Origin: Candidatus Aramenus sp. CH1
GTDB lineage: Archaea; Thermoproteota; Thermoprotei_A; Sulfolobales; Sulfolobaceae
Reading direction: 5' to 3'
Assembly (NCBI GenBank): GCA_022678445.1
Contig: JALBWU010000007.1
Coordinates: 201,501-265,500 of the forward strand
Length of the DNA stretch: 64,000 nucleotides
Shown: positions 4,202 to 41,417 of the stretch, one piece after another
Layout: each line of letters starts with the position of its first letter
Numbering within the stretch: position 1 is the stretch's first letter
Notes under the pieces: model-generated
What the model was told of the DNA's origin: nothing
The model's database searches: none
Seen by the model: only the letters and a program-made list of their open reading frames with translations
Made by a program: the position numbers and the translations under genes

Positions 4202-5137
4202 TCACGTGTTCTTTGGCTGAACCCCCCCTTCTAATATCTCCCTATACCTTCTGGAGACGTTTATCACCTTTCTCGCTACCTCCAGTGGGTCTGAGCCAAA
4301 GACGTAGGTTATCGGCTCGATCCCCTTACCTCCCAAGTGTATAACGGCGTCTTCCCCGTTGTAAGCTTTTACTATCTCCTCAGCTATCTCCTCATCGTTC
4401 GCGTAGTCTCTTGGTCCCGCTTCGACGTATCTCAGCCCTACACTCTTCATGGCCTCTAACACGTTTTTATCGAACTTTATATTCATGACTGACCTAACCT
4501 TGGGGAACCTCTTGTTCACGTGAATGAGTATGATTGCCAAGTGCCTGCTCCCTCCCCACATTGGCTTCGATACTGGGGTAGGTAGCCCCCTGACCTTTGC
4601 TATCCTGCCGGGTACAGCTATCACGTCAGCCACGTCATGGGGGTTCCTCTTGGAGAAAGCAATGTTACTAAGTACCTCTGGGATTAGGAGCCCGATCGTT
4701 TCGTTCTGCAACATGGATATAGCCAATGAGATCTCCTCTTCTTCGTCCTCCCTGTAAAACGACTCGCATATGTTACAGTCCAGGGGTATTGTGGGGTTTA
4801 CGCGCCTATGGTAATTACAGAACTTCAGCTCGCTCAGCATCTTCAAGCCCTGCATGGTCACGAAGTACATGGTATCCTTGACGTTGTTCTTTACCAATAT
4901 TTCGGTAAGCTCATCTAGGAACTCCTGGATTTCCTTGTCACTGAGCCCAAGTTCCCTGAGCTTTTCCGAGTATATCTCCTCCTTCACGTCTAAGTACTGC
5001 TTTACTGCAGGTTGAGTGACTCCCAGGAGGGAGGCTATCTTAGTCTGGCTTATGTTCATGGTTCTTAGTCTCTTCGCCTCCAAAGCCCTTATATTCGGCA
5101 GGAGAACATTAGTAATCAGAGATATGGGAGTTTCCAA
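4202..5137 (-). CDS. thiR: HTH regulator with ThiN domain (ThiR-like)
   Basis: A 311-residue protein with an N-terminal helix-turn-helix (about residues 25-55, T-K-I-A-S-L-L-G-V-T-Q-P-A-V). A middle region holds Cys/His residues that could bind metal (C-N-Y-H, then C-N-I-C). The C-terminal domain resembles ThiN thiamine-phosphate synthase (about 160-305, including G-L-P-T-P-V-S-K-P-M-W-G-G and H-L-G-G-K-G). In archaea this fusion is a thiamine-responsive repressor in which the ThiN domain senses thiamine phosphate instead of, or besides, making it. The start is TTG 5137. It diverges from nurA with a very short or overlapping intergenic space. No thi biosynthetic gene is in this window, so its targets lie elsewhere. 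Confidence 0.8.
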   Translation of the reverse strand: METPISLITNVLLPNIRALEAKRLRTMNISQTKIASLLGVTQPAVKQYLDVKEEIYSEKLRELGLSDKEIQEFLDELTEILVKNNVKDTMYFVTMQGLKMLSELKFCNYHRRVNPTIPLDCNICESFYREDEEEEISLAISMLQNETIGLLIPEVLSNIAFSKRNPHDVADVIAVPGRIAKVRGLPTPVSKPMWGGSRHLAIILIHVNKRFPKVRSVMNIKFDKNVLEAMKSVGLRYVEAGPRDYANDEEIAEEIVKAYNGEDAVIHLGGKGIEPITYVFGSDPLEVARKVINVSRRYREILEGGVQPKNT

Positions 5138-36789: not shown

Positions 36790-36798
36790 TAAAATTCC
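36790..36798. repeat. 9-bp direct repeat, left copy (putative target-site duplication)
   Basis: TAAAATTCC immediately outside the left inverted repeat; the same 9-mer, same orientation, is immediately outside the right one at 39972-39980. Confidence 0.6.
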
Positions 36799-36799
36799 G

Positions 36800-36899
36800 T
36801 GTGTGGACAACAATTTTGTTATTTCGATACAAATTGAATTTCTTTTTATGGAAAAGTATTTTTAGGGTGAGGACGAGTTTATTTTATGAGGATGAGAAA
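36800..36899. repeat. Left terminal inverted repeat, about 100 bp
   Basis: Pairs with the complement of 39872-39971. The two share tgtgtggacaa at the outer tip, acaaattgaattt in the middle, aggtgaggacgagt (one g inserted here) and ttattttatgag at the inner side, about 80 percent identical by eye with a few small gaps. The inner end overlaps a local hairpin (36867-36928). Confidence 0.75.
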
Positions 36900-36928
36900 A
36901 TGAACAGATTTGATTTTCTCGTCCTCAC
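36867..36928. other. Nested hairpin inside left repeat
   Basis: The 11-mer gtgaggacgag (36867-36877) is followed by its exact complement ctcgtcctcac (36918-36928). A second arm, gagaaaat (36894-36901) with attttctc (36913-36920), shares bases with it, so two alternative stems compete. It may be a terminus structure, a regulator site or a transcript hairpin; the right repeat lacks the second arm. Confidence 0.6.
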
Positions 36929-37133
36929 ATAAATTATTTCTTCACTTTTAAGGTATATAAATGTTAAGCCAAGATCTCACTCACTATTTATTAGTATTCA
37001 CGTTAGTTTTCAGACATCTTTTCATAACTTGTCGCTAATTCTATAAAAACTTTCCACTATATAACAGATTATTAGTGAAAAATATTAAGAGTTAAAAAAA
37101 AGATATAACGAAAGTATATATAGAGGTGAGAAA
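36929..37133 (+). promoter_or_regulatory. AT-rich leader upstream of the peptide operon
   Basis: No gene here. The segment is strongly AT-rich with several TATA-like runs (near 37041-37050, 37076-37084 and 37090-37100), so the promoter cannot be fixed by eye. Unlike most host genes in the window, the operon has clear Shine-Dalgarno sites: gaggtga at 37123-37129, four bases before the first ATG. Confidence 0.5.
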
Positions 37134-37229
37134 ATGTCTGAACTACAAAGAGCAATACTAAATCACATACAATCAATAAATCCCGACCATGTTTGTATTA
37201 TTGGTATAGTAATATGTGATGTAGGGTGA
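37134..37229 (+). CDS. Candidate RiPP precursor peptide, 31 aa
   Basis: A 31-residue frame, too short for standard gene calling, starting at ATG 37134 behind a gaggtga ribosome-binding site. The first 20 residues (M-S-E-L-Q-R-A-I-L-N-H-I-Q-S-I-N-P-D-H-V) look like an amphipathic leader. The last 11 are C-I-I-G-I-V-I-C-D-V-G, a hydrophobic core with two cysteines six residues apart. The stop TGA lies inside the ribosome-binding site of the radical SAM gene, which begins four bases later. Size, Cys content, and position before a SPASM enzyme and an exporter are what one expects of a thioether or other radical-SAM-modified peptide. No homologue is known to me; a regulatory leader peptide is the main alternative. 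Confidence 0.65.
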   Translation: MSELQRAILNHIQSINPDHVCIIGIVICDVG

Positions 37230-37233
37230 TAAA

Positions 37234-38322
37234 ATGAGTGAAAACGGAAATGAAAAAGATCTTTTTTACATTTATGCTACGTTAACATGCAATCTATCTT
37301 GTATACATTGTTACGTTCCTTCTTCACCTAATTTGGTTGTTAAAAATGAACTCTCTTTAGATGAGATTAAAAAGTTTATAGATTACGGTAAGAAAATAAA
37401 GGTTAAGGGAATTAGATTAACAGGTGGAGAACCACTTTTAAGAAAAGATATTCTAGAAATAATAAATTACGCTATATCCAAGGATATGAGTGTAGAGGTA
37501 GAGACTAACGGTCTCTTAATAGATAATAATTTTCTTAAATCAGTGTCGGACCTAAACAAGATATATATTAGTATAAGTTTAGACGGTCCTAAAGAAGTTC
37601 ATGAGAAGATTAGAGGAATTAACACTTTTGAAAGGACAGTTAACGTTTTACGCCTCTTAAAGCAATATAATGTGAAGAGGACAATAGTAACTACCCTTAC
37701 AATAATGGACTGGATATACGATGAAGAAAAACTGAATAGTTTTATCAACCTTATTATAGACCTATATCCTAATGTATGGTATATTCACGTATGGGTTAGC
37801 CCAGCGGGTAGAGCGAAACTCCTTAAGTCTCCTAAGGTTAAAGAGATTTATGACGCTATAAAATTATTCTATTCGTTAAGAATAAAGTTGGATGGAAAGG
37901 TTCCTATAGTTCTGAATGTTCCTCCTGCAGTCATTCCAGAGGAGTTCACGGAGTTCATGTTAAAGGATAATCTATTAAATTTAGGTTGCCACTGGTGGAG
38001 AATAGCTGGAATAAGTAGTAATGGTAATGTATCAATATGCCATAGATTCGCGTCATTCCCAGAGATGAGAGCTGGAAATGTGAGAAGGGATGATTTTGAC
38101 AAGATATTTTCAAATGAGATACTTAACAGAAGGGAAATAAGGCTGAAAGGGATATGTAGTAAATGCTTAATAAAAGAGTATTGCAGGGGATTCTGTAGGG
38201 CAGACGCCTACGAATTTTACAGAGACTTTAACGCACCGCATCCCCTATGCCAACTATTTTACGAAAACGGGTTCTTTAACAAGAATTTCATAATTGGGCA
38301 AATTTTTCTTTACTTTGTTTAG
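37234..38322 (+). CDS. Radical SAM/SPASM peptide-modifying enzyme
   Basis: A 362-residue radical SAM protein. The cluster motif C-N-L-S-C-I-H-C places cysteines at 19, 23 and 26, and G-G-E-P lies at residues 64-67. A complete C-terminal SPASM domain follows the canonical spacing: C252-x11-G-x4-C269, then C308-x2-C311-x5-C317-x3-C321 and C339, enough for two auxiliary 4Fe-4S clusters. SPASM enzymes include sactipeptide, ranthipeptide and mycofactocin maturases, which modify short gene-encoded peptides. There is no separate peptide-recognition (PqqD-like) domain at the N-terminus. It is AT-rich compared with neighbouring genes. The ribosome-binding site gggtga overlaps the precursor stop, so translation should be coupled. 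An anaerobic sulfatase maturase is an alternative, but no sulfatase is near. Confidence 0.88.
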   Translation: MSENGNEKDLFYIYATLTCNLSCIHCYVPSSPNLVVKNELSLDEIKKFIDYGKKIKVKGIRLTGGEPLLRKDILEIINYAISKDMSVEVETNGLLIDNNFLKSVSDLNKIYISISLDGPKEVHEKIRGINTFERTVNVLRLLKQYNVKRTIVTTLTIMDWIYDEEKLNSFINLIIDLYPNVWYIHVWVSPAGRAKLLKSPKVKEIYDAIKLFYSLRIKLDGKVPIVLNVPPAVIPEEFTEFMLKDNLLNLGCHWWRIAGISSNGNVSICHRFASFPEMRAGNVRRDDFDKIFSNEILNRREIRLKGICSKCLIKEYCRGFCRADAYEFYRDFNAPHPLCQLFYENGFFNKNFIIGQIFLYFV

Positions 38323-38359
38323 ATTTACAGAACGTTTATATTTATCGGGTGAAAAGAGA

Positions 38360-39496
38360 ATGAATGGCAAACATAGAAGAATTGCATTGCTATACTACAT
38401 CTATATCTCAGACTATTTGTCCAGCTTCATTAGCATGGTAAGGAATTTAATATTCCCCATTTATGCTTATGAGCTAGGATATTCCCCCTTAATAATCGCA
38501 TCTTTCTTAGGAATATTCTACTTATTAGTCGCGTTACTATCGTATCCTTCCTTATTCGTGGTTAAGAAGATAGGGGCTAGAAATTCAGTATTATTATGCA
38601 ACCTAACGGATGCGATATCCCTCCTCCTCTTATCGTTTAACTCCCTGACATTCTTTTATTTATCGTTTGGAATAATTTCTATAGCTCAGATCTTTGCATC
38701 TCAATTTACAACTCTAATTGCTCATAACTTTGAGGAGAGCGAACTAAAGGGAATATATTCGAAAAGATATGGCATAGCAGTAGTGGGTTACTTATCCTCT
38801 ATAGGTCTGTCAGCCATTACGAATTATTTTGGAATAGTCAAATACATATTCTTACCACTAGGGATAATCTATTTGCTAACGGTATTCTTCGTCTTACTAT
38901 TCAGACCAACTGCATCCGAGGTAAAGAACTTCAAGTTGATACCATCTAAAGAGTCCATTTTAGCAGTGATAGTAGTTCGTTTCATAGGCAGTTTGATAAC
39001 TGCCTTGACAATATCGCTACTTCAAGTCTTTTACCTAAAAATAGGTTTAAATGGTTTCGATGTTAGTATAGTCTACCTGCTGGAATATGTCGCAAATTTA
39101 ATATCGTATAGAGTAGTTGATAAGATCAAGGAGGAGTCTTTGATCAAATATTATATCCCGTTGTCTGTCATCTCAAGTATTTTAGTCTCTTTAATATCGT
39201 TAAGGATTTACGCAGTAAGTGTATCAATGCTAATTGCATCAGATTTCGTAGGCACAATGGTGGGCCTTGTAGAGTCTGTCCTATCTATCAAGTTATTGAA
39301 GAGACTTAACCAGGTTGAAGTTGGTAATGTATTAAAAGAGATGTTTGGAACATTTGGAGGAATGATCGGAGTTGTAATGGAAGGATATCTACTATCGCTT
39401 GGACTTTACGCGTTGCCCTTCGTAATAAGAGCTATCATGAGCTTAGTAATTCGAGTTTGGCTCTATGACTACTATAAGAAAATGAAAGTAATTTGA
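38360..39496 (+). CDS. MFS-type exporter
   Basis: A 378-residue protein with about 11-12 hydrophobic helices. It shows the typical major-facilitator loop after helix 2 (V-V-K-K-I-G-A-R-N) and a similar break in the middle (residues ~185-200). ATG 38360 is preferred because gggtga lies seven bases before it; a Met codon 66 bases upstream overlaps the radical SAM gene and lacks a site. It follows the radical SAM gene by 37 bases. Export of, or immunity to, the matured peptide is the natural role; the family also includes drug transporters. Confidence 0.82.
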   Translation: MNGKHRRIALLYYIYISDYLSSFISMVRNLIFPIYAYELGYSPLIIASFLGIFYLLVALLSYPSLFVVKKIGARNSVLLCNLTDAISLLLLSFNSLTFFYLSFGIISIAQIFASQFTTLIAHNFEESELKGIYSKRYGIAVVGYLSSIGLSAITNYFGIVKYIFLPLGIIYLLTVFFVLLFRPTASEVKNFKLIPSKESILAVIVVRFIGSLITALTISLLQVFYLKIGLNGFDVSIVYLLEYVANLISYRVVDKIKEESLIKYYIPLSVISSILVSLISLRIYAVSVSMLIASDFVGTMVGLVESVLSIKLLKRLNQVEVGNVLKEMFGTFGGMIGVVMEGYLLSLGLYALPFVIRAIMSLVIRVWLYDYYKKMKVI

Positions 39497-39871
39497 CAAG
39501 ATAAAAAAGCCTCACATTTTAAGAGTGGATAAGATTTTTATATTCTATATTATTCAACTGAAGTAAACTGATTTCTCTGCACTAAGAGAAGTTCCCTTCA
39601 TCAATTCGGGCTTACATTAGAGGGCTGAGAGACCCAGAGAAACCCCTCTCATAAATCCTATAATGATGAGCCAACTTAGCCATCAAAAATCAACAAGAAA
39701 GTGATCACTATAACATCAAGCCTAAGCCCATTATCCAATTTGTGAAGAACAAGGTGAGGCAGTAAAGTCCTCCAACTTGACAAGTAAGAGGTCTAGTGTA
39801 ATCTAGTCCAAGGAATGAAACCTTAGCTTAGCATTTTAGGGTAGATATAATTTGGGTGAAGAAACAAAACG
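39497..39871. other. Non-coding inner flank of the element
   Basis: About 375 bp between the exporter gene and the right inverted repeat without an intact gene. A short plus-strand tail I-K-P-K-P-I-I-Q-F-V-K-N-K-V-R-Q ending at TAA 39763-39765 looks like the end of a lost coding sequence, possibly a transposase. T-rich runs just after 39496 (tataagatttttatattc-like) may end transcription. Confidence 0.4.
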
Positions 39872-39971
39872 TATTCTCATCTCATAAAATAATACTCGTC
39901 CTCACCTAAAAATTCTTTTGTAATAAAGAAAATTCAATTTGTAACAAAATAATCAGATTATTGTCCACACA
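39872..39971. repeat. Right terminal inverted repeat, about 100 bp
   Basis: Inverted partner of 36800-36899; see the left repeat for shared blocks. Its outer end ttgtccacaca is followed directly by the 9-mer TAAAATTCC. Confidence 0.75.
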
Positions 39972-39980
39972 TAAAATTCC
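39972..39980. repeat. 9-bp direct repeat, right copy (putative target-site duplication)
   Basis: TAAAATTCC, identical to 36790-36798, adjoining the right inverted repeat. Confidence 0.6.
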
Positions 39981-40103
39981 ACTTTGAACCGACGGCCCCC
40001 TCTATTGCAACTGGAAACTATTCTGGCTATTTTAAACACCAACAACAAAACTCGTTATACAAACTCAATTTCTAATGCTAAATTCAGACTAGAAAGCCTA
40101 ACT

Positions 40104-40124
40104 CTCCAGTGGAAACACAGGGGT
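40104..40124 (+). promoter_or_regulatory. Origin-recognition box (ORB) A
   Basis: The 21-mer here has the ORB core ccagtggaaacacaggggt. The next box repeats it with one base changed (cacag to cagag). Confidence 0.8.
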
Positions 40125-40144
40125 GTCTCAGCTTTCCTTACGTT

Positions 40145-40165
40145 CTCCAGTGGAAACAGAGGGGT
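40145..40165 (+). promoter_or_regulatory. Origin-recognition box (ORB) B
   Basis: Core ccagtggaaacagaggggt, starting 41 bases after box A and in the same orientation, i.e. about four helical turns apart. Box B lies 61 bases before the cdc6-1 start codon. Confidence 0.8.
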
Positions 40166-40226: not shown

Positions 40227-41417
40227 ATGAGTAGTATCATAGACGACGTTTTAAACAATGTGAGGTCTTCTCCGATTTTCAAGAACAGGGAGCTTCTCCT
40301 GCCAGACTACGTCCCAAGTGAACTGCCGCATAGAGAGGAGCAGATAAGGCGATTAGCTAGTATCCTGGCCCAGCTCTACCGGGGAGAAAGGCCCAGCAAC
40401 GTATTCATTTACGGCCTCACGGGTACTGGCAAGACGGCCGTAACAAAGTTCGTGCTGAAAGCCCTTATGGAGAGGCTCAAGAACTTCCTCTACATTTACG
40501 TGAACACAAGGCAGAGCGACACGCCCTACAGGATCCTGGCCGACATAATAGAGGGGCTGGGCGAAAAGGTTCCATTTACTGGGATCTCTACGGCGGAGCT
40601 CTACCGAAGGATGGTGAAGGCCTTTTCCTCAACCAATACGATCCTCGTCATTGTCTTAGACGAGATAGACGCCATGGTGAAGAAGCACGGGGATGACGTC
40701 CTTTACAAGTTGACGAGGATAAACTCTGAGATCGGAAAGAGTAAGGTCTCCATCATAGGGATAACCAACGACGTGAAGTTCATTGACAACCTTGACCCAA
40801 GGGTGAGGAGCAGTTTGAGCGAGGAGGAGATAGTCTTCCCGCCCTACAACGCAGAGGAGTTGGAGGACATTCTCATGAGGAGGGCAAAGGCGGCCTTTAG
40901 GGAGGGGGTCATCTCAGAATCTATAATAAAGCTTTGTGCAGCCCTAGCTGCGAGGGATCACGGAGACGCTAGGAGGGCTTTGGACCTCCTCAGGGTCGCG
41001 GGCGAAATAGCTGAGAGAGAAAGAGCTAAAGTCGTGACAGAGGAACACGTGGAAAAGGCAAGGGTCGAGATAGAGAGGGACAGGGTGTACGAGGTGATCT
41101 CCAGTCTGCCCTTTCACTCAAAGCTAGTGTTGTTTGCTATCCTTCAGGGGCTCAAGGAAAAGGACGCAATGACCACAGGAGAGGTCTACGACAGGTACAA
41201 AGAGCTTGCACAACAGCTAGGGATGGAGGTGGTCACACAGCGGAGGGTAAGCGACATAATTAACGAGCTTGACATGGTCGGCATAGTTACTGCTAAGGTA
41301 GTTAACAGGGGTAGGTATGGAAAGACAAAAGAGATAACCCTCGCAGTAGATAGGGAGATAGCGATCAAGGCGTTGGTGGAGAATGATGAGAGAGTTGCTG
41401 GTCTCTGGGGTAGATGA
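40227..41417 (+). CDS. cdc6-1: Orc1/Cdc6 initiator, Cdc6-1 type
   Basis: A 396-residue AAA+ initiator: N-terminal [17 protein letters not shown], Walker [13 protein letters not shown], Walker [11 protein letters not shown], sensor 2 in [10 protein letters not shown], and a winged helix from about 290. It binds ORB elements and recruits MCM. The adjoining boxes and linkage to radA (6 kb on) identify it as Cdc6-1. It overlaps the DUF99 gene by 35 bases. Confidence 0.96.

Follow-up and report, generated by a model that had tools for sequence, protein, structure and literature searches.

The 64 kb stretch of DNA analysed here (the window), from a thermoacidophilic archaeon, carries a three-gene operon that we read, with a probability of about 0.83, as a mobile RiPP system in which a radical SAM enzyme modifies the cysteines of CxxG units in a short peptide, probably to thioethers, and an MFS transporter exports the product. 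The data show that the genes exist, are conserved and occur together, that the peptides share the CxxG pattern, that the operon lies in a cassette flanked by a target duplication, and that a sibling species has lost it. The relation between enzyme and substrate, the chemistry, the removal of the leader, the direction of transport and the activity of the product are inferred.

The three genes lie in tandem on the forward strand at 37134-39496. They encode a 31-residue precursor peptide (37134-37229; MSELQRAILNHIQSINPDHV-CIIGIVICDVG), a radical SAM/SPASM enzyme of 362 residues that is presumed to be the peptide maturase (37234-38322), and an MFS transporter of 378 residues counted from its ATG, the presumed exporter of the product (38360-39496), with intergenic gaps of 4 and 37 bases, respectively. 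Strings resembling ribosome-binding sites precede the peptide gene (gaggtgagaaaATG) and the radical SAM gene (tagggtgataaaATG), and a weaker one (cgggtgaaaagagaATG) stands ahead of the start of the MFS gene. Pfam searches recover Radical_SAM (PF04055, 8e-29) and SPASM (PF13186, 9e-7) in the enzyme and MFS_1 (PF07690, 6e-15) in the transporter. The initial annotation, made from the sequence alone, had described three genes separated by 4 and 37 bases and an enzyme with an intact CX3CX2C motif and a seven-cysteine SPASM domain, all of which hold; its claim of a strong ribosome site at each gene holds only in part, given the weaker third one, and the extent that it assigned to the unit, 37134-39496, is too short, as the unit extends further, to the mobile cassette that spans 36799-39972.

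Two other Sulfolobaceae genomes, G042 and G175, carry these three genes in an identical order, with radical SAM proteins 82% and 70% identical to that of the window; both genomes belong to one genus other than that of the window. No further orthologue of the enzyme was found in the family (31 genomes, searched completely), the order (197) or the class (229). Among the 197 genomes, orthologues of the transporter occur only in the other two operons (E below 1e-20), and a profile search for the peptide gave significant matches only in the three operon copies, with no lone precursors, so that peptide, enzyme and transporter are all confined to the same three genomes. The flanking genes differ among all three operons, and because the same three genes recur in differing surroundings, we conclude that they travel as a unit. 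The criterion for a RiPP operon, a short precursor adjoining a modifying enzyme and conserved together with it, is met across the three operons. One scan of genome contigs for close relatives returned only unrelated bacterial radical SAM proteins, and the scan of viral contigs together with a phage tblastn search returned only weak radical SAM matches, none of them operon-like.

Just upstream of the operon, G042 and G175 also carry a divergent frame of 49-52 codons (L013:9205-9354 and L014:9017-9175, both on the reverse strand), found in no other genome of the family. The two versions are 40% identical and share three invariant cysteines (CT[IV]GCV...E[IV]CDNPL) and one CxxG unit, and the product could conceivably be a second substrate, a partner or an immunity protein. 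We rejected it as a member of the operon: it is missing from the window genome, where it is cut off at the insertion sequence junction, and the operon can be described without it. The homology between the window and G042 ends at approximately the start of this frame, where the insertion sequence begins.

Selection acts on the short frame as a coding sequence, and it is more than a chance reading frame. The window peptide aligns with the short frames adjacent to both orthologous enzymes in single-pair BLASTP comparisons (8e-10 and 6e-7), and its dN/dS lies at 0.2-0.5, compared with approximately 0.1 for the enzyme; it is this alignment, together with dN below dS, that establishes selection on the encoded peptide. 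The three orthologous precursors are MSELQRAILNHIQSINPDHVCIIGIVICDVG, MSELQGALLSHIASIFAGLTSCGKGTVICDTGTVG and, read from its second Met, MSELQLRLLDHISSIEAIGCDVGVICGVGTT. None of the models in Pfam, NCBIfam or PHROGs matches the peptide. When the three orthologues are aligned, residues 1-20 (37134-37193, forward strand) form a leader region whose conserved part spans residues 1-15 and follows the pattern MSELQ-x3-L-x-HI-x-SI, with 10 of these 15 residues invariant (n = 3 sequences only); the same 15 residues might form an amphipathic helix. The core region, residues 21-31 (37194-37226, forward strand), varies in both length and sequence among the three, the common residues being mainly C..G, VIC and G. 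A conserved leader followed by a variable core is the usual RiPP pattern and is seen here, with the reservation that the contrast rests on only three sequences.

Within the core, each cysteine is followed by a glycine at position +3, in the units CIIG (37194-37205) and CDVG (37215-37226), and the corresponding pairs in the three precursors are CIIG/CDVG, CGKG/CDTG and CDVG/CGVG. If we add a four-cysteine peptide encoded beside a more distant enzyme in genome G244 (described below), CxxG is found at every cysteine in all four precursors, and the cysteine and its glycine at +3 are the only residues common to the four cores. When the cores are shuffled one at a time, CxxG falls at all cysteines with a frequency of 2-6%; since the three cores are related to each other, it is the G244 peptide that supplies the independent case. 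In the 64 kb window the operon peptide is the sole short frame with at least two CxxG units that make up at least 75% of its cysteines, and the same filter applied to 265 kb (the window and the related loci, both strands) returned the four precursors and one spurious frame of 26 residues inside a radical SAM gene. We infer that CxxG is probably the unit of modification. Two details of the initial annotation are corrected by these comparisons: the leader, given there as 20 residues, is conserved over about 15, and the spacing proposed for the core, C-x6-C, is either x5 or x6, with CxxG, a motif that had not been noted, as the conserved unit at every core cysteine.

The enzyme meets the description of a radical SAM/SPASM protein. 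Its CX3CX2C motif (C19, C23 and C26; 37288-37311, forward strand) is invariant in the three orthologues and in the G244 enzyme, and the SPASM domain (PF13186; 37987-38250, forward strand) has seven cysteines (C252, C269, C308, C311, C317, C321 and C339), all invariant, such that all ten cluster cysteines are retained in the three orthologues. The gene is under strong purifying selection, with dN/dS of approximately 0.1 (0.097 against G042), and the corresponding value for the transporter against G042 is 0.15. The radical SAM core begins at residue 16, and none of the three operon proteins matches a PqqD/RRE domain in Pfam. RRE leader-recognition domains occur in many but not all RiPP classes and are hence not strictly defining. 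The last residues of the window enzyme, IIGQIFLYFV (38290-38322), are unlike the acidic tails of its orthologues (AGEEDDG and REEDEERDSS), whose genes both overlap the start of the MFS gene, a difference that probably stems from a rearrangement or a change of frame confined to the region behind the SPASM domain.

By score the enzyme cannot be assigned to any NCBIfam family. The best NCBIfam models are AhbD (138 bits), ScmF (133 bits) and NirJ1 (123 bits), with cut-offs of 400-650 that none of them reaches. The closest solved structures are CteB (5wgg, 2e-17) and, second, SkfB. Both CteB and SkfB are thioether-forming peptide maturases. In a tree of archaeal relatives the three orthologues join the G244 enzyme (support 100/99), and in a larger tree that includes two bacterial plasmid enzymes, the latter join G244 and the six rows together are separate from all heme-type and mycofactocin-type rows (100/99). 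The two plasmid enzymes, from Rhizobium and Parabacteroides, were the best matches in a plasmid tblastn search, with less than 32% identity; their neighbours are phosphoribosyltransferase and kinase genes of nucleotide type, and no CxxG peptide was found near them. Because these bacterial relatives adjoin nucleotide-type genes, the tree alone is no proof of peptide chemistry, and the argument for such chemistry is carried by the conserved precursors. Two assignments were rejected for the enzyme: a heme-pathway radical SAM protein (AhbD, AhbC or NirJ), for which the best score is 138 of 500 bits, the enzyme lying outside the heme-type rows of the larger tree, and an anaerobic sulfatase maturase (TIGR03942, 76 bits against a cut-off of 349), which is also rejected on the tree.

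Outside the family, the nearest archaeal relative of the enzyme belongs to G244, from the same phylum and another class. Its cluster (L083:2903-7727) consists of the ATPase and the membrane protein of an ABC-2 exporter, a peptide of 61 residues and of the form (CxxG)4 that ends in AAACTPGTCGTGNCEAGYCVSGRVIT, a TldD/PmbA-type metalloprotease approximately 10 bases behind the peptide frame, and a radical SAM/SPASM enzyme. All four cysteines of the peptide lie in CxxG units (shuffle frequency 5e-4), and its overall similarity to the three orthologous precursors is weak (shuffle p 0.003); the peptide is known from a single genome. The G244 cluster resembles the window operon in its radical SAM enzyme, the sister of the orthologous trio among archaeal rows (100/99), in the placement of all peptide cysteines in CxxG units, and in an APHPxCQ motif found at the last SPASM cysteine of both enzymes. 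It differs in the longer peptide with four units, in the use of ABC-2 in place of MFS transport, in having its own TldD-type protease, and in the opposite orientation of the radical SAM gene, whose product is only about 30% identical. We infer that this uncharacterised cluster is, independently of the window operon, a strong candidate for a RiPP system. Another RiPP-like archaeal cluster was observed in G209 (L084:5087-8564), where a radical SAM protein with a fused PqqD domain, preceded by a possible 50-residue precursor (MKGVSEVENCEEIYEAPK...), is followed by two ABC transporter genes.

The operon is contained in a cassette (36799-39972) that forms a sharp island of low GC content, approximately 0.35 compared with 0.47 for the window. 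Identical 8 bp sequences, AAAATTCC, lie directly outside its terminal inverted repeats at 36791-36798 and 39973-39980, and the chance that two random local 8-mers match in this way is approximately 1.5e-4. The left arm (36799-36946, forward strand; outer end GTGTGTGGACAA) and the right arm (39838-39972, reverse strand; outer end TTGTCCACACAT) are decayed remnants of ISC774/IS6-type elements that form an inverted repeat with a local alignment score of 156, where shuffled sequences reach at most 62. Similarity of the right arm to the element at locus L029 extends back to approximately position 39729. The arm repeat has 18 related places in the genome, and L029, a fuller copy of the element, is 87% identical to the left arm; the transposase fragment beside it is assigned to ISC774/IS6 by NCBIfam (1e-20), while a Pfam scan of that fragment gave no match. 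A solo, non-autonomous element of 238 bases (MITE; L028:252-489) shares these ends over 12 bases and is flanked by a separate duplication of 8 bases, AAACCACC. Inverted insertion sequence copies at both ends and an 8 bp duplication fulfil one of the criteria for an IS6-type compound transposon, and the cassette is most simply read as a compound transposon, 3174 bases long, with insertion sequences that decayed later. Like ISC774-like compound transposons of the IS6 type, it has inverted copies around passenger genes and an 8 bp duplication; it differs from them in that the flanking copies are decayed and lack a transposase frame. An ISC774 transposase is recognised only as a fragment beside a sister copy, the flanking copies being too decayed. 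It has been argued that the archaeal insertion sequences should leave the IS6/IS26 family (PMC6807381).

The subsequent history of the cassette can be followed in a sibling species, G050, whose flanks are 94-95% identical and which carries this insertion at the same site, its left duplication and left arm being intact. Through two deletions in G050, window position 37071 is joined directly to 38020, and position 38161 to approximately 39976, removing the peptide, most of the radical SAM gene and the exporter, and leaving a 142-base piece of the SPASM region between them (L048, contig G050:C4, approximately 4397-4982, reverse strand). Since the insertion is shared, it predates the split of the two species; G050 has lost the function and the window species has kept open reading frames. 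In the window, two 22-nt repeats (TCTCCAGTGGAAACA[CG]AGGGGT), 41 bases apart (40103-40165), lie directly upstream of an Orc1/Cdc6 gene (40227-41417). They resemble origin recognition boxes, and the cassette was thus inserted approximately 130 bases from a likely replication origin.

In the mechanism that we propose, the ribosome would make the 31-residue precursor and the SPASM enzyme would bind its MSELQ-x3-L-x-HI-x-SI leader directly, as a separate leader-binding domain is not encoded. A SAM-derived radical would then abstract hydrogen, and both cysteines that stand in CxxG units of the C-terminal core would be modified, the likeliest product being one thioether per CxxG unit from the cysteine sulfur to a carbon inside or adjoining the unit. 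A host protease not encoded in the operon would cut off the leader near residue 20, and the MFS protein would export a small hydrophobic product whose thioethers would survive hot acid. The operon would have entered the genome flanked by two inverted insertion sequences of the ISC774/IS6 type, the whole forming a compound transposon, and these insertion sequences would later have decayed. The product would most likely be a toxin used in competition or a signal, because patchy distribution, mobility, loss in the sibling and a variable core fit these roles better than that of a cofactor, the core of which should be constant.

This interpretation has its weak points: neither a product nor expression nor activity of the enzyme is known, the operon contains neither an RRE/PqqD domain nor a protease, the best scores of the enzyme, though far below cut-off, are to heme models, the bacterial relatives lie among nucleotide genes, and there are only three orthologous precursors. 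The initial annotation had interpreted the locus as a peptide-modification and export system, and had stated that it would be refuted if the short frame were not conserved beside orthologous enzymes or if the enzyme grouped with sulfatase maturases. Neither is the case: the frame is conserved next to both orthologues, and by score the enzyme does not group with sulfatase maturases, whose anaerobic model gives 76 bits where the best model gives 138, so that the interpretation is supported. That the system is self-contained, as was also stated, remains an inference, since a leader protease and a separate leader-binding domain are not encoded in the operon; the suggested antimicrobial or signalling role is possible, with the activity inferred and not shown.

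A bolder version of our reading, to which we give slightly less than even odds, is that the operon represents an undescribed RiPP class defined by CxxG units in the core. An RRE-free SPASM enzyme would form one small thioether ring per CxxG unit, possibly onto the glycine alpha-carbon, and the system would be spread by insertion sequences among thermoacidophilic archaea and have dedicated MFS export of a product that withstands hot acid and acts as a weapon or signal.

Among the alternatives, the one that survives best, though we find it unlikely, is that of a RiPP operon whose product is not a thioether but, for instance, carries a C-C or ether bond or an epimerised residue, or is a redox cofactor or metal-binding peptide with free or disulfide-bonded cysteines. 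SPASM enzymes and their relatives carry out many reactions, and PqqE, MftC, DarE and YydG are peptide radical SAM enzymes of other chemistry. Also in its favour, Cys+4, where the known acceptor of PapB-type links is located, is never Asp, Glu or Thr in the window core. Against it, the four cores have no residues in common besides cysteine and its glycine at +3, and the closest solved relatives make thioethers. We hold it very improbable that the enzyme acts on something other than the peptide, such as a porphyrin or another small molecule, and that the short frame serves in regulation as a leader peptide or encodes a small protein partner. The heme-pathway proteins AhbD and NirJ among the best NCBIfam scores and the nucleotide-metabolism genes around the two bacterial relatives speak for this possibility, but the enzyme stays below the cut-off of every heme model, heme-type radical SAM genes occur separately in the genome as a tandem pair (L002 and L003), heme genes are absent from the cassette, the peptide is kept at the amino-acid level with both cysteines and both glycines, and the CxxG pattern recurs beside the distant G244 relative. 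Equally hard to sustain is the view that a mobile element carries the operon as a passenger that no longer functions and is decaying. Decay of the insertion sequences on either side and the loss of most of the operon in G050 speak for it, but all three frames are intact in the window, the enzyme has a dN/dS of 0.097 against G042, and intact copies persist in two other genomes.

Returning to the preferred reading of a thioether-forming RiPP operon, we compared it with known systems. Ranthipeptide clusters (SCIFF/CteB and PapA/PapB) likewise have a short cysteine-bearing precursor adjoining a SPASM radical SAM enzyme, but the window operon has no N-terminal RRE, no SCIFF-type six-cysteine core and no CX3D/E motif, and has CxxG units and an MFS exporter instead; membership in this class is not met, as the PapB model scores 83 bits against a cut-off of 340. 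Sactipeptide clusters (subtilosin, and SKF with SkfB) similarly combine a radical SAM/SPASM enzyme with a cysteine-containing leader peptide; the window operon differs in having no RRE domain, ABC exporter or protease, and in being archaeal and limited to three genes, and the StsB model gives the enzyme 101 of 625 bits. A survey of archaeal RiPPs counts ranthipeptide- and sactipeptide-type clusters and includes Thermoproteota among its genomes (PMC12144867); its main text does not name Sulfolobus, and as far as we searched we did not find the precursor or operon there. We found no description of the precursor, the CxxG unit or such a Sulfolobales operon in the open-licence literature searched, and the initial annotation had likewise been aware of no described system with such a precursor. 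RiPPs modified by radical SAM/SPASM enzymes are well known as a general kind, and it is the precursor, the CxxG unit and the operon in Sulfolobales that appear to be new.

To our knowledge, hardly anything is known about the modified peptides of Sulfolobales, for which genetic tools exist. The operon is a minimal system of only three genes and offers a conserved leader, a CxxG motif that can be put to the test, core variants in three species, a distant variant with four units and a sibling species in which the operon is deleted. Should the enzyme prove active at high temperature with no separate domain for leader binding, it would make a useful tool for cyclising peptides. The finding means that an operon for peptide biosynthesis, as we interpret it, moves between archaea as the cargo of insertion sequences.
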